DNA from: Flavobacteriales bacterium
GTDB taxonomy: Bacteria > Bacteroidota > Bacteroidia > Flavobacteriales > TMED113
Length of the DNA stretch: 64,000 nt
Assembly (NCBI GenBank): GCA_002718895.1
Contig: PBGD01000009.1
Span: 1-64,000 of the forward strand
Direction of reading: 5' to 3'
Positions 34,121 through 40,070 of the stretch are shown here, piece by piece. The translations under genes and the position numbers were made by a program. Position 1 is the stretch's first letter, and each line of letters opens with the position of its first letter. The notes under the pieces are model-generated. The model ran no database searches and was not told where the DNA came from. It saw nothing but the letters and a program-made list of their open reading frames with translations.

Positions 34121-36112
34121 TTATTTTATCACTACTACTCTTTTATTAAATATATCTGCAGATGTTTTTAACACACAAGTATATATTCCAGTTGGAAAAT
34201 TACTTATATCTATTTTAATTGAATTACTTGAAGAATTATAAAATCTTTTATCAAATATAATTTGTCCGGTAATATCTAAAAGAAAAATATTTACATTGGA
34301 TTTATCTACAAATTCAAAATCAATATTTAAGTAGTTTTTAGAAGGATTAGGGTATACTTCAAAAAAGGGTGCAAATGAATGGTCTTTTAAGTCTATTGAA
34401 TATTCGCCAATTCTAAAGTAATCCGTTAATTCTGAGCCAAAGTCAGGTTCATAATATTTAAAAAAACCTCCCGGAACAGACCTTAGTCTAGCATATCCAG
34501 AACCATCATTATTAGCCCACCAGGCTAAACCATCTTCATTACTATATGGACTTCCTCCTGTATCTAAAATTTGTAATTTATAACAACCAGGTGCTAACTC
34601 AAAAGTATCTCTGTATAAAGTATTAGCATCCATACCTGTTTTTTCAAAAATTAGATTACCGAAATTATCTCTTAGCTCATAAGAACTTTCATTTGGAAAA
34701 TTATTTGTTTTAAAATACATAGCAAATTTACTAGGATATTCTTGGACATACTCATAGTTTGTATATAATATATCATTTACATTATATTCGTCTTCATTAA
34801 AATTAGGAGAATTAACTCTTGCATAAAAAGACAAATCATCATCCCAAGAGTACCAATTTATAGGAGGAAGCATAACTATCTCTGACTGTCCAAATTCTAA
34901 ATTTCCAACCCAAGTATATATGTTTGGATTGTAATTATCAAAACCATAAACAATTTCAACGCTTGTCAAATTTTGAGATCCTTGATTTTTAATTTTCACA
35001 ATAGGATTTGAACAAGTTGGATTGAATCTAAAATGCTCTTGCTTAGTAGAGGGTGCTATGATATCCTCCATTACAGCATCTAAATTAAAGTTAGGCTCTC
35101 CATATGTAAATAATTGCGCGTCATAAATATAGCTAGCACTCCCCTCTCCTTCTGATTGATTATACCACGAAACTGAATTTGGTTTTAATATTTTAAACGA
35201 AAGACTATTATTATCATTTAGATTAATAAAATCAGTTAATTCGTGTTCTATTGTAGTTGCTTTGTCTCCTGGACACCAATTTGCACGATTATAAATCCAT
35301 GTGCCACCTTGTGGATATATAGCAACTTCTCCACAATCATCTCTCCATAATTCGTGAGTATAAATATTTTCATCATTTATCTCAACATGATAATTTACGC
35401 CCTCGGTAAACTCTCCATTTAATCCATGACCACTCACAGTAACTCTTAACATTGAGTTTAAATCATCATTAGAGAAGAAAATATTAGAATCAGTAAGGTT
35501 TTGTAGATTGGCATAAGATTGATTACCAGACCATAAATTTTTAACATCCAACACATTTCTAGGTGGAATACCTTCAATAAATTCAAAATTTAAAGTGACA
35601 TTAAAACAACCCCCTGCTCCAGATTGTGGCCACCCACCATAAAAGGCTCTTATTAAAACCGAATCTTTTAACAAGGGAGCAAAATCAGTTACATCATATG
35701 TATATCTATGTACCCAATTTGGTGAAAATCCAGTTCCCTGACTATTTCCAGGTTGCATATATGTTCCATAGGGAGTTACTACATTAGCTAATGTTTGATC
35801 ATGTATAAAAATAGGATCTTCATTATCGTCAAGGCCATTCTCTTTTAGTAAACTGATTTTAGTTGTGTAGTCCCACCCACTGCAACCTGGCCAAGTTGGA
35901 TTGTTTGGTGAACCACATCTCAGATCATAATGCATTAGTATTTGTCTATATGAATTGCTTCCGTCAGGAAAAACAGCCCAGTTGTCAAAATTTCCATGAG
36001 CATCCATATCAACATAATCATGAGCCTGAACAAAAGTAGTATCCTCCTGAGAATTACTTGAAAAAGAAAATAAAAAAATAAAAATTAGTATGGAATTGAT
36101 AGATTTAGTCAT
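34121..36112 (-). CDS. secreted PNGase F-like protein with T9SS tail
   Basis: Peptide-N-glycosidase F releases intact N-glycans from asparagine. The 663 residues start with a signal peptide (IFIFLFSFSSNSQ). The N-terminal PNGase F-like jelly roll includes LMHYDLRCGSP with GCSGWDYTTKISL, VTPYGTYMQPG and FEFIEGIPPRNVL. The second domain includes VSGHGLNGEFTEG, HELWRDDCGEVAIYPQGGTW and IYNRANWCPGD. A C-terminal T9SS domain (about 585-663, VYPNPSKNYLNIDF and NFPTGIYTCVLK) marks export. The region 350-580 is an additional beta-rich part. It is divergent from a sugar permease. Catalytic residues were not mapped. Confidence 0.85.
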   Translation of the reverse strand: MTKSINSILIFIFLFSFSSNSQEDTTFVQAHDYVDMDAHGNFDNWAVFPDGSNSYRQILMHYDLRCGSPNNPTWPGCSGWDYTTKISLLKENGLDDNEDPIFIHDQTLANVVTPYGTYMQPGNSQGTGFSPNWVHRYTYDVTDFAPLLKDSVLIRAFYGGWPQSGAGGCFNVTLNFEFIEGIPPRNVLDVKNLWSGNQSYANLQNLTDSNIFFSNDDLNSMLRVTVSGHGLNGEFTEGVNYHVEINDENIYTHELWRDDCGEVAIYPQGGTWIYNRANWCPGDKATTIEHELTDFINLNDNNSLSFKILKPNSVSWYNQSEGEGSASYIYDAQLFTYGEPNFNLDAVMEDIIAPSTKQEHFRFNPTCSNPIVKIKNQGSQNLTSVEIVYGFDNYNPNIYTWVGNLEFGQSEIVMLPPINWYSWDDDLSFYARVNSPNFNEDEYNVNDILYTNYEYVQEYPSKFAMYFKTNNFPNESSYELRDNFGNLIFEKTGMDANTLYRDTFELAPGCYKLQILDTGGSPYSNEDGLAWWANNDGSGYARLRSVPGGFFKYYEPDFGSELTDYFRIGEYSIDLKDHSFAPFFEVYPNPSKNYLNIDFEFVDKSNVNIFLLDITGQIIFDKRFYNSSSNSIKIDISNFPTGIYTCVLKTSADIFNKRVVVIK

Positions 36113-36209: not shown

Positions 36210-37790
36210 ATGAAAGAAAATAAAAATCATTTATCTGCTCTTATTACACTTGTAACTGTATTTTTCTTTTGGGGATTTATAGCAGCGTCAAATGGTGTAT
36301 TTATTCCCTTTTGCAAAGATTACTTTAACCTTACTCAATTCCAATCACAACTAATTGATACCGCTTTTTATGGGGCTTATTATTTTGGAGCACTTTTCTT
36401 GTTTTTGTTTTCCTCAAATAGAAAAAATGATTTAATAAATAAATGGGGATATAAAAAAAGTATCATCTATGGATTACTCGTTTCTGTAGTTGGATCATTA
36501 CTTATGATACCCTCTGTTAATTTTGGATCTTTTAATTTAATTTTACTTTCTCTTTTTATTATTGCAATTGGATTTTGTTTGCAACAAACTGCTGCTAACC
36601 CTTTCGCTATTTCTCTTGGAGAACCCGAAACAGGTTCTCATAGATTAAATTTAGCAGGAGGTGTCAACTCACTAGGCACAACAATAGGTCCAATTGTAAT
36701 TAGTATAATTTTATTTGGTGGAATCCTAAATACAAATCCTGAGATTAAGAATATGAATATCCTATATATTTTCGTAGCAGGATTATTTATTGCAATGGCA
36801 CTATTTCTAAATTTTTCTAGAAATTTACCAAACCCCAAAAATAGCTCTAAAGTTGAGTCTTCACCTAAGGCTAATAAATTATTAATTACTCTTACGTTTT
36901 CTATATTTACTCTTACAATTATCAGCTTATTAAATCCCATCCAATCAAATAACACATTAAGCTCAATTATCCTATTGATATTGTTAATTAGCGTTATATA
37001 TATTATTGTTAAACCCCTATATATTAAAAAGAAAACACTAAAAGATTGGGGAGCGATGAAATACCCACAATTAAGTTTAGGGATGTTAGCTATATTTTGT
37101 TATGTAGGAGTTGAAGTAACAATTCAAAGTAATTTAGGTGCACTATTAAACACAGATTCTTTTGGAAATATCAGTGCAGCTGAAAATTCACACTTTATTG
37201 CAATGTATTGGGGCAGCTTAATGATTGGAAGATGGCTAGGAGCAATTTCAATATTCAATCCAAGTAAAATAACAAAAAACATATTATATGTATTGGTTCC
37301 ATTTATAGCTTTTTTAATTGTTCTTTTTTTTATCAATCTTAGAGGAAGTAGTATAAATTCATTGAAACTATTTTCTATATGTATAATTATACAAATACTT
37401 GGTTTTTTACTTGGACAAAACAAACCAGTTAAAACACTATTTATTTTCAGTGTTTTAGCAACTATATCTATGGTATATGGAATACTAAATACTGGAACTG
37501 TTAGTATATATGCTTTTTTAAGTGGTGGCTTATTTTGCTCCATAATGTGGCCATGTATTTTTTCACTCAGTATAGCAGGACTAAAAAAGTACACATCTCA
37601 AGGATCATCATTTTTAATTATGATGATTTTAGGTGGAGCAATTGTTCCCCCAATTCAAGGTAAAATTGCAGACATATGGAACATCCACTCATCTTATATC
37701 ATTACAATTTTTTGTTTTTTATATATCGCTTTTTTTGCAATTAAAACTCAATCTGTTCTTAAAAATCAAGGTATTGATTATGATAAATAA
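36210..37790 (+). CDS. FucP/GluP-type sugar:proton symporter
   Basis: This major facilitator protein of 526 residues has about twelve membrane segments, with FFFWGFIAASNGVFIPFCKDYF at the start and FGAYYFGAL-like FYGAYYFGALFLF in helix 2. The loop KWGYKKSIIYGLLV and LQQTAANPFAISLGEP match the fucose/glucose/galactose permease (FHS) family, as does LNLAGGVNSLGTTIGPIV. It is divergent from the PNGase F-like gene (97 bp apart), which suggests import of sugars released from glycans, though this link is inference. The C-terminal half has extra residues compared with E. coli FucP (438). Confidence 0.9.
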   Translation: MKENKNHLSALITLVTVFFFWGFIAASNGVFIPFCKDYFNLTQFQSQLIDTAFYGAYYFGALFLFLFSSNRKNDLINKWGYKKSIIYGLLVSVVGSLLMIPSVNFGSFNLILLSLFIIAIGFCLQQTAANPFAISLGEPETGSHRLNLAGGVNSLGTTIGPIVISIILFGGILNTNPEIKNMNILYIFVAGLFIAMALFLNFSRNLPNPKNSSKVESSPKANKLLITLTFSIFTLTIISLLNPIQSNNTLSSIILLILLISVIYIIVKPLYIKKKTLKDWGAMKYPQLSLGMLAIFCYVGVEVTIQSNLGALLNTDSFGNISAAENSHFIAMYWGSLMIGRWLGAISIFNPSKITKNILYVLVPFIAFLIVLFFINLRGSSINSLKLFSICIIIQILGFLLGQNKPVKTLFIFSVLATISMVYGILNTGTVSIYAFLSGGLFCSIMWPCIFSLSIAGLKKYTSQGSSFLIMMILGGAIVPPIQGKIADIWNIHSSYIITIFCFLYIAFFAIKTQSVLKNQGIDYDK

Positions 37791-37950
37791 AAAACCCGTA
37801 TATGGGCTTGAAGAAATTCAAAATGAACAGGCTTAACTCAGTTATGAAAATTCGGTAATTCTGCAATCAATAGACCAGACCCGCCCTAGCTTTCATAAAC
37901 AAAAAGTAAATTATATTAGTGTTAATTTCTCAAACATAATCACATACGGG
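37791..37950. other. structured, GC-enriched intergenic segment (possible RNA)
   Basis: This gap of 209 bases between the permease and the SDR stands out from its AT-rich surroundings: 13 of 18 bases at 37873-37890 are G or C. Nested complementarities are visible. CCCGTAT (37795-37801) pairs with ATACGGG (37944-37950). TTGAA-GAAA-TTCAA (37808-37821) is a hairpin with a GAAA tetraloop. TTATGAAA (37842-37849) pairs with TTTCATAA (37891-37898). On the minus strand the left end reads AAGCCC, six bases, GGGTTT and more T, like a terminator. It could be a riboswitch-like leader of the SDR or a leftward small RNA. I recognise no known family. Confidence 0.4.
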
Positions 37951-37999
37951 AGTAACTAATTTAATATTATTTTAATAACTAACAAAAATTAATATTCAG

Positions 38000-38758
38000 A
38001 TGACAAAAACAGTATTAATCACAGGAGCAACATCAGGAATTGGAAAAGCACTAGTTAAACGATTTTCACAAGAAAAATATAATATCATAATAACAGGAAG
38101 AAGAGAAAATAGATTAAAAAATATAAAAATTAAAAATGAAGAATTATTTAACAATAAAATTCTAACCTTAAACTTTGATATTACAAATCACCAAATAGTT
38201 AAAAATTCTTTAAATTCATTACCGAATCAATGGAAAAAAATAGACATACTAGTAAATAATGCAGGACTAGCAAGAGGACTAGATAAAATACAAGACGCAT
38301 CAATCCAAGATTGGGAAGAAATGATAGACACAAATATCAAAGGTTTATTATATATATCTCATATAGTTTCAAATTGGATGAAAAAACATAATAAAGGTCA
38401 TATTATTAATATAGGATCAACGGCAGGAAAAGAAGTTTATGAAAAAGGTGGTGTATATTGCGCTACAAAACATGCTGTAGACGCTATTTCGAAGAGTTTA
38501 AGGATTGATTTACTAAAAAGTGGTATCAAAGTAACTCAAGTATGTCCAGGTGCAGTAAAAACAGAGTTTTCTAAAATCAGATTTCATGGAAATATTAAAA
38601 AAGCAAATGATGTATATAAGGGTTACACCCCATTAAAAGCAGAAGATGTAGCAAATGTAATTTTCTACACATCTACTTTACCTGAAAATGTATGTATTAA
38701 TGATTTAGTAGTAACAAGTCTTAATCAAGCAAATAGTTTTTATATTAGCAGAATATAA
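38000..38758 (+). CDS. short-chain dehydrogenase/reductase (YdfG-like)
   Basis: A 252-residue NAD(P)-dependent oxidoreductase. The cofactor motif is LITGATSGIGKAL (residue 6) with TGRRENRL suggesting NADP preference, then NNAGLA (86), and the catalytic Ser 140, Tyr 153 and Lys 157 in INIGSTAG and GVYCATKHA. VCPGAVKTEFSKIRF completes the classical SDR pattern. The closest named enzymes are YdfG-type 3-hydroxy acid (serine, malonic semialdehyde) dehydrogenases. It follows the unusual intergenic segment, which may regulate it, and is followed two bases on by a small gene. Confidence 0.92.
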   Translation: MTKTVLITGATSGIGKALVKRFSQEKYNIIITGRRENRLKNIKIKNEELFNNKILTLNFDITNHQIVKNSLNSLPNQWKKIDILVNNAGLARGLDKIQDASIQDWEEMIDTNIKGLLYISHIVSNWMKKHNKGHIINIGSTAGKEVYEKGGVYCATKHAVDAISKSLRIDLLKSGIKVTQVCPGAVKTEFSKIRFHGNIKKANDVYKGYTPLKAEDVANVIFYTSTLPENVCINDLVVTSLNQANSFYISRI

Positions 38759-38915: not shown

Positions 38916-40070
38916 CTATAAAGAATCTTCTAATTTTTTCATCTCAATACTTTTCTTCGAATCTCCAAGCTTATAGTATATTTCCTTTAACACGGAAACA
39001 ATAGATTTATTTTTACCATCTATTCTTAAACAAGCTTCAAGATGAGGAAGTGCTAGACTATAAAGATCATTAATTTGCTTTTTATAACTATTAAATTTAG
39101 ATGTTTCTTTATAGCTGAGAGCATTTTTTTTCTCTATTAAATCTATTGTTTGATCTAAGTACAAACTAGCTAGATTATTGTATGCATCAAAATATGTTGA
39201 ATCTAACTTTATAGCCATTTCAAAAGATGCCTTAGACTTATCAAAATCTTTTAACTGGTTATATGTATTACCTAAAACTAGATGGAGAATTGGATTATTT
39301 TCATCAGATTTGACAGCATTATCTAGACTTTCTAGTAATAATTTATTATCACCTGTTGATAAATAATAATTAACTTCTTCAAAAATTATGTCTTGAGAAC
39401 TAGGAATATTTAATCTACCATTTTTAATAGCTTTTAATTGAGAATCAGTATCACCCATATCAGCATAAGCTCTAATTAATCTCAAATGAAATCTTTCATC
39501 ACTTGGATTAATATTAACCAATTTTTCTGACCATTTTATAGATTCTTGAAAATTTTCAGACTGATAAGCCATTAATGCTGCATTATACATATTAAAAGTA
39601 TCAATTTTTTCAACTCCAGCAGTCCCATTGATATTAATTGCATTAACAAACTTACTCAGTGCACTATTAAAATCTTTTTTCTCATAATCTTTGTATGCCC
39701 CATCTTGAAACAAATATGCACATACAGAGAGTTGATTGATTGATTTTTTATAAAAGTTTGATTGCAATGCAACATCTTCTATAAAGGAATCTGATGCAGT
39801 TTTTAGTAATGTAAAATCAGAAATAAGAGTGTCAGACTGAAATGCCTTAAGGTATATAAGTCCTCTGTAGTATAAAAACTTAGATTGGTCCTTAGGTTTT
39901 TTAAAAGTTGAACCAGAATTTATTTTGGTAGTTGCAATATCAATCCACTTTTTTGCAGATTGTAAATCATTTTTATTATCTAATGCAATAATTGCACTAG
40001 TTAGATCTGCTTTTTGTGAATAACAGCTTATTGATATTAATATTGATATCAAGAAGTATTTTATTTTCAT
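38916..40070 (-). CDS. exported tetratricopeptide-repeat protein
   Basis: The 384 residues begin with a signal peptide (FLISILISISCYSQ). The rest is helical TPR units, for example AALMAYQSENFQESIKWSEKLVNINPSDE, ILHLVLGNTYNQLKDFDKSKASFEMAIK and AYNNLASLYLDQ. TPR proteins mediate protein contacts. In flavobacteria such a gene commonly lies directly downstream of gyrA, as here (31 bp), and the shared transcript suggests some link to growth, although none is established. The Cys before SQ could be a lipobox variant, but the fit is poor. Confidence 0.85.
   Translation of the reverse strand: MKIKYFLISILISISCYSQKADLTSAIIALDNKNDLQSAKKWIDIATTKINSGSTFKKPKDQSKFLYYRGLIYLKAFQSDTLISDFTLLKTASDSFIEDVALQSNFYKKSINQLSVCAYLFQDGAYKDYEKKDFNSALSKFVNAININGTAGVEKIDTFNMYNAALMAYQSENFQESIKWSEKLVNINPSDERFHLRLIRAYADMGDTDSQLKAIKNGRLNIPSSQDIIFEEVNYYLSTGDNKLLLESLDNAVKSDENNPILHLVLGNTYNQLKDFDKSKASFEMAIKLDSTYFDAYNNLASLYLDQTIDLIEKKNALSYKETSKFNSYKKQINDLYSLALPHLEACLRIDGKNKSIVSVLKEIYYKLGDSKKSIEMKKLEDSL

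Follow-up and report, generated by a model that had tools for sequence, protein, structure and literature searches.

A divergent 6S RNA very probably encoded in the minus strand of an intergenic segment of an uncultured Flavobacteriales genome

The window, that is, the whole stretch of DNA analysed here, comprises the first 64,000 nucleotides of contig PBGD01000009.1 of a Flavobacteriales bacterium (assembly GCA_002718895.1, GTDB TMED113), whose genome is a 1.34 Mb draft that is 84.6% complete. A gap between an MFS transporter gene and an SDR gene, both on the plus strand, very probably holds, on the minus strand from 37950 to 37788 (163 nt), the gene for a divergent 6S RNA. The features of the locus are given below in window coordinates; R1 is a covariance model built from the window's family alone, R2 is a joint model of 45 sequences, and column numbers refer to alignment A3.

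36210-37790, plus strand: MFS transporter gene (PF07690), convergent neighbour, not part of the RNA
37788-37950, minus strand: very probable 6S RNA gene, transcript body including the T tract, 163 nt (R2, R1, subthreshold RF01685)
37789-37794, minus strand: terminator-like T tract after P1, overlapping the stop codon of the convergent MFS gene
37795-37805, minus strand: outer closing helix P1, 3' arm, containing CCCGTAT (family and cross-family alignments)
37806-37818, minus strand: inner closing helix P2, 3' arm AATTTCTTCAAGC, with one bulged base (columns 144-156)
37808-37821, minus strand: candidate release hairpin UUGAA-UUUC-UUCAA, an alternative that cannot coexist with P2
37819-37836, minus strand: central bubble, 3' strand, mostly unpaired between the apical stem and P2 in A3, limits approximate
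37837-37903, minus strand: apical stem-loop with conserved GCTAGGGCGGGTCTGG (37890-37875) and CAGAATTACCGAATT, limits approximate
37904-37923, minus strand: central bubble, 5' strand (AACACTAAT...), with AACAC after P2, containing most of a previously supposed promoter
37924-37935, minus strand: P2, 5' arm GTTTGAGAAATT (columns 18-29)
37940-37950, minus strand: P1, 5' arm, containing ATACGGG (columns 1-13)
37956-37963, minus strand: candidate -7 box TAAATTAG, 5 bases before the CCCG of the RNA
37983-37986, minus strand: candidate -33 box TTTG, 19 bases upstream of the -7 box
38000-38758, plus strand: SDR gene (PF00106), divergent neighbour, not part of the RNA
38916-40070, minus strand: TPR protein gene, which stays close to the RNA in several members of the family

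The T tract (window 37788-37794) overlaps the MFS stop codon, and the two transcripts therefore meet tail to tail. The product of a gene at window positions 34121-36112 combines a Por secretion tail with a peptide-N-glycosidase F C-terminal domain.

A string check of the window found everything that a preliminary description of this segment had named: CCCGTAT at 37795-37801, ATACGGG at 37944-37950, TTGAAGAAATTCAA at 37808-37821, TTATGAAA at 37842-37849, TTTCATAA at 37891-37898 and, on the minus strand, TACTTTTTG at 37908-37900. Our results bear out the structured RNA that it proposed, read leftward and stopping at a T tract (minus strand, 37794-37789): its CCCGTAT/ATACGGG closing pair is helix P1, with paired changes in relatives, and its 8-bp pair TTATGAAA/TTTCATAA forms the apical stem. 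The length of about 100 bases given there is wrong, the RNA having 163 nt; in the family alignment on the minus strand the segment forms a single unit from CCCG through the T tract. TACTTTTTG, which had been taken for the promoter, lies within the RNA, on the 5' strand of its central bubble. The promoter is likely to be found upstream of CCCG, as TTTG (37986-37983), 19 bases and TAAATTAG (37963-37956), which would place the transcript start near 37950; the sigma-A consensus, in the available text of PMC9723704, is TAnnTTTG at positions -12 to -5. TAAATT stands at about the same distance in six relatives (L003, L004, L006, L007, L008 and L029; spacings counted by eye), with TTTG 19-20 bases before it in all of them except L008, and L010-L013 have weaker forms of the promoter boxes. 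The 3' strand of the bubble has a motif that by eye resembles a sigma-A -7 box, but it was judged too weak and dropped.

The composition and folding of the segment say little when taken alone. Its G+C content (33.8%) does exceed the window mean (27.1%), but to call it far above the flanks, as had been done, was an overstatement: 91% of 160-base windows have a G+C content no higher than this, and the only very G+C-poor stretch is that of the 49 bases (12%) between the segment and the SDR gene. Judged alone, the inverted arms are not more than chance would give, the longest perfect inverted repeat being 8 nt, a length of at least 8 being found in 51 of 300 mononucleotide shuffles. Single-sequence folding gave z = -0.42 for the minus-strand stretch and z = -1.76 for the plus strand, the two being of different lengths. 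What marks the segment out is its conservation, together with paired changes in relatives, and not the folding of a single sequence.

The earlier statement that no known RNA family is present holds at Rfam gathering thresholds, where the scan that had been suggested found nothing in the window or in 11 family loci, but fails below them. In the relaxed search, positions 37927-37814 of the minus strand match RF01685 (6S-Flavo) over its full length with 29.6 bits (E 0.021 in 451 bases). The next three relaxed matches, to eukaryotic snRNA/snoRNA families, were read as chance, as were snoRNA, U4 and leader-peptide matches below their cut-offs; a tRNA/tmRNA scan found none. At first look, a genome search with RF01685 missed the window locus, and a second place that it matches (21 bits, E 1.29) is reported by neither R1 nor R2 and was set aside as chance. 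With 29.6 bits against a gathering cut-off of 85, the RNA cannot be filed as a member of RF01685 as the family is now drawn, nor is it a member by cut-off (60 bits) of RF01693 (Bacteroidales-1, described in Rfam as '6S-Bacteroidales RNA suggested'), for which no match is listed in the window. Below the cut-off, RF01693 matches three relatives, the best being the family member L010, where it aligns end to end with 29.8 bits (E 0.0025 in 351 bases) and where RF01685 scores 25.1 bits at the same place.

ACUCAACACUAA, in the 5' strand of 6S-Flavo, corresponds to AAUUAACACUAA in the window RNA, and AACAC, which directly follows P2 in all 11 aligned family loci, aligns with the AACAC of 6S-Flavo. 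The same outer closing helix and T tract are present at 6S-Flavo loci, in flanks outside the RF01685 model, with P1 just beyond its boundaries in other families (e.g. CCCGTATTAAT...ATTAATACGGG). P2, in contrast, is GAAAUU/AAUUUC in the window RNA and AAACUC/GAGUUU in 6S-Flavo, and the window RNA has an apical stem of its own. Bacteroidales-1 is of the same length class. By description, the window RNA also resembles the 6S RNAs of E. coli and B. subtilis: the available part of PMC8876501 presents 6S RNA as a rod of about 200 nt with closing stem, central bubble and apical stem, an arrangement found here in 163 nt. As far as the available texts go, 6S-Flavo was introduced in a comparative-genomics survey of 2010 (PMC2864571), 6S RNA has been detected in Flavobacterium psychrophilum (PMC9723704), and a 6S RNA with pRNAs has been reported in Bacteroides thetaiotaomicron (PMC7366714).

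At the DNA level, the segment has strong matches in 10 of the 11 other family genomes (G002-G011, not G001), and the core motif GCTANGGCGGGTCTGG, with at most two mismatches, is present in 11 of the 12 family genomes, the window's own included. In a pattern scan of named GTDB genomes the motif occurs in 11 stretches, all labelled as uncultured Flavobacteriales or Bacteroidetes. One genome, G011, has two different copies of the 6S RNA (L005, 13-176 of contig C23, and L029, 925-1088 of contig C5); both are near contig ends, and a tandem pair or an assembly or binning artefact is possible.

It is the two models that show homology with 6S RNAs already recognised in the phylum. R1 scores the window copy, which is part of its training set, at 169.1 bits, its only match in the genome, as is expected for a housekeeping RNA. 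It was run on 50 loci of other Flavobacteriales families found by RF01685, mostly including some 1.5 kb of flanking sequence in both directions, and matched 36 of them at the expected place and strand (15.4-47.8 bits, 34 at E <= 0.011), including nine of the ten above the RF01685 cut-off; 14 were missed, and four other rows in the test reached at most 10.6 bits. R2 gives the window copy, also in its training set, 134.2 bits on the minus strand. At E <= 0.1 it is positive in 111 of 148 Flavobacteriales genomes, training loci among them, with a single match in nearly all of these. RF01685 exceeds its cut-off in 10 of the same 148 genomes and matches 98 at E <= 10, some of these by chance. Under stricter filters, R2 is positive in 63 of 395 genomes across the phylum, mostly of the same order. 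On 14 more distant genomes, RF01693 has two matches above its cut-off (G361 and G465), both within a base of R2 matches. From the R1, R2 and L010 matches we read RF01685, RF01693 and the window RNA as one homologous set. The f16 genomes (300-600 kb) among those listed have no R2 match, which suggests that 6S RNA was lost with genome reduction. Among the papers listed in our literature searches, none is on the RNA of the window's family. Wehner et al. (2014), a study reportedly on the dissemination of 6S RNA, may list a wider distribution.

The gene neighbourhood of the RNA differs from that of 6S-Flavo. The SDR and MFS genes adjoin it in the window and in none of 11 other family loci (L005 with almost no upstream flank, L013 with 348 bases), while the TPR gene is near it in the window and in L004, L006, L007, L008, L009 and L029. 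In other Flavobacteriales, 6S RNA is found directly upstream, within 200 nt, of an ORF with a similar N-terminus in 48 of 50 loci, and this ORF is RNase Y (rny, TIGR03319) in all four loci tested; the 6S RNA and rny of these bacteria may be linked in expression. Counted to the first ATG, the RNase Y-like ORF follows the end of the Rfam 6S-Flavo match by 16-173 nt in those 48 of the 50 loci (L033-L082). In the window's family rny was found in 6 of 12 genomes, in that of the window (G000) on another contig, and none of the six loci has a 6S RNA beside it (best 11.8 bits). A position upstream of rny, which is usual for 6S-Flavo and not defining, is thus not seen in this family.

The missing rny linkage, the scores far below both Rfam cut-offs and the loci missed by R1 are among the points against a 6S RNA. 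One could suppose instead that the RNA, though small, structured and derived from a 6S RNA, has taken on another job in the window's family, where the old place beside rny has been abandoned and where GCTAGGGCGGGTCTGG and CAGAATTACCGAATT of the apical part are almost invariant, unlike in other families. However, the rod, the bubble and the AACAC next to P2 have all been kept, and R1 and R2 find no other 6S locus in the genome, incomplete as it is, so that we regard a change of job as improbable. The segment RNA is homologous to RF01685 and most likely works as a 6S RNA, ordinary in kind and new as a located member.

Paired-base changes in relatives, which the preliminary description had proposed to look for, are abundant both within and across families. 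In the R1-fitted alignment of 11 family sequences, 96.2% of pair cells are standard and 13 of 43 pairs have changed on both sides (33 cells); none of 500 shuffles reaches the pairing percentage, the changed-pair or the changed-cell value, and pairing falls to 38-51% when the partners are slid by 1-3 columns. An unfitted MAFFT alignment of the family likewise has 13 pairs changed on both sides, and alignment A1 leaves out L009, which is at a contig end. Among 45 sequences of several families, 38 of the 43 pairs have changed on both sides (503 cells, 0 of 500 shuffles), in counts that are to be read with the reservation that A2 and A3 were fitted to the model structure, which flatters them. P1 alone has changes on both sides in 6 of 11 pairs within the family and in 8 of 11 across families. 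The 45 rows of A2 come from 46 sources, 11 of the family and 35 of the 50 other loci, L033 having given none; the 15 loci outside it are L054, L055, L059, L060, L062-L064, L067, L068, L070, L071, L073, L074, L078 and L080.

The same pairs settle the strand. Standard pairs make up 96.2% in the family and 90.9% across families when read on the minus strand, and 83.1% in both cases when read on the plus strand, because G-U pairs break there; on the window, R2 scores 134.2 on the minus strand and 19.8 on the plus strand. This bears on a cis-acting plus-strand leader of the SDR gene, e.g. a riboswitch, which had been offered as an alternative and for which the position upstream of the SDR start and the slightly better plus-strand fold (of a different length) could be cited; with the G-U pairs fixing the minus strand and the SDR gene found beside the RNA in the window only, among the family loci compared, the proposal finds no support and is extremely unlikely. 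A segment that has no function, and in which inverted repeats arose by chance or a coding gene has decayed, would agree with arms that do not exceed chance, but is just as hard to believe in when the DNA is kept in 10 of 11 other family genomes with compensating changes; this reading and the leader were both rejected on strand, conservation and covariation evidence. The RNA of the window is encoded on the minus strand, is homologous to the 6S RNAs of Flavobacteriales and Bacteroidales, and has a conserved fold.

How it may act can be drawn from other 6S RNAs, which, according to the available part of PMC8876501, are rods imitating an open promoter, from whose 5' bubble strand a pRNA is made that opens P2; in the E. 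coli type, a hairpin then joins the 3' bubble strand with the 3' arm of P2. Transcribed leftward between about 37950 and about 37788, the window RNA folds into a rod in which the closing helices P1 and P2 are followed by a central bubble that is mostly open and by an apical stem; the rod would imitate an open promoter and occupy sigma-A RNA polymerase. When nutrients return, the polymerase would use the 5' bubble strand (37904-37923, by analogy the putative pRNA template, with AACAC next to P2) to make a short pRNA, upon which P2 would open, the 3' strand would refold and the polymerase would be let go. Both polymerase binding and pRNA synthesis are what homology predicts for the window RNA.

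A hairpin of the E. coli type, described in the available part of PMC8876501 as forming in the 3' strand at the expense of P2, can likewise be formed in the window RNA. The TTGAA-GAAA-TTCAA string of the preliminary description is indeed there, and its minus-strand form UUGAA-UUUC-UUCAA, which could be such a hairpin, takes up the 3' arm of P2 and cannot coexist with that helix. Local folding is better than in dinucleotide shuffles (p <= 0.1) for the 3' strand in 21 of 45 rows and for the 5' strand in 2 of 45; with the P2 arm fixed and one value per genus, the mean over 22 genera is -4.12 kcal/mol as against -1.97, and none of 500 shuffles is as low. The window's own genus gives p = 0.30 in the 3'-strand test, which is not significant, and the genus-level result thus supports a switch for the group and leaves it as only possible for the window copy. 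We tentatively suggest, with doubts somewhat outweighing confidence, that flavobacterial 6S RNAs, that of the window included, have an E. coli-type release switch whose hairpin has been re-invented with different bases between families. In such a switch, the 3' strand of the bubble would repeat part of the 5' arm of P2, and once P2 has opened, its 3' arm would be caught in a local hairpin (UUGAA-UUUC-UUCAA in the window RNA, AAAACUUGU/ACGAGUUU in genus g9) and the polymerase thrown off.

In this marine flavobacterial group, drift has been so large that the standard RNA library misses its 6S RNA. Helix P1 is not part of the public 6S-Flavo model, whose cut-off leaves most of the order undetected (10 of 148 genomes recovered, as against 111 with the extended model R2), and the two Rfam families of Bacteroidota 6S RNA, RF01685 and RF01693, can be joined. 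An uncultured marine lineage very probably gains a 6S RNA, and with it what would be a general brake on transcription.
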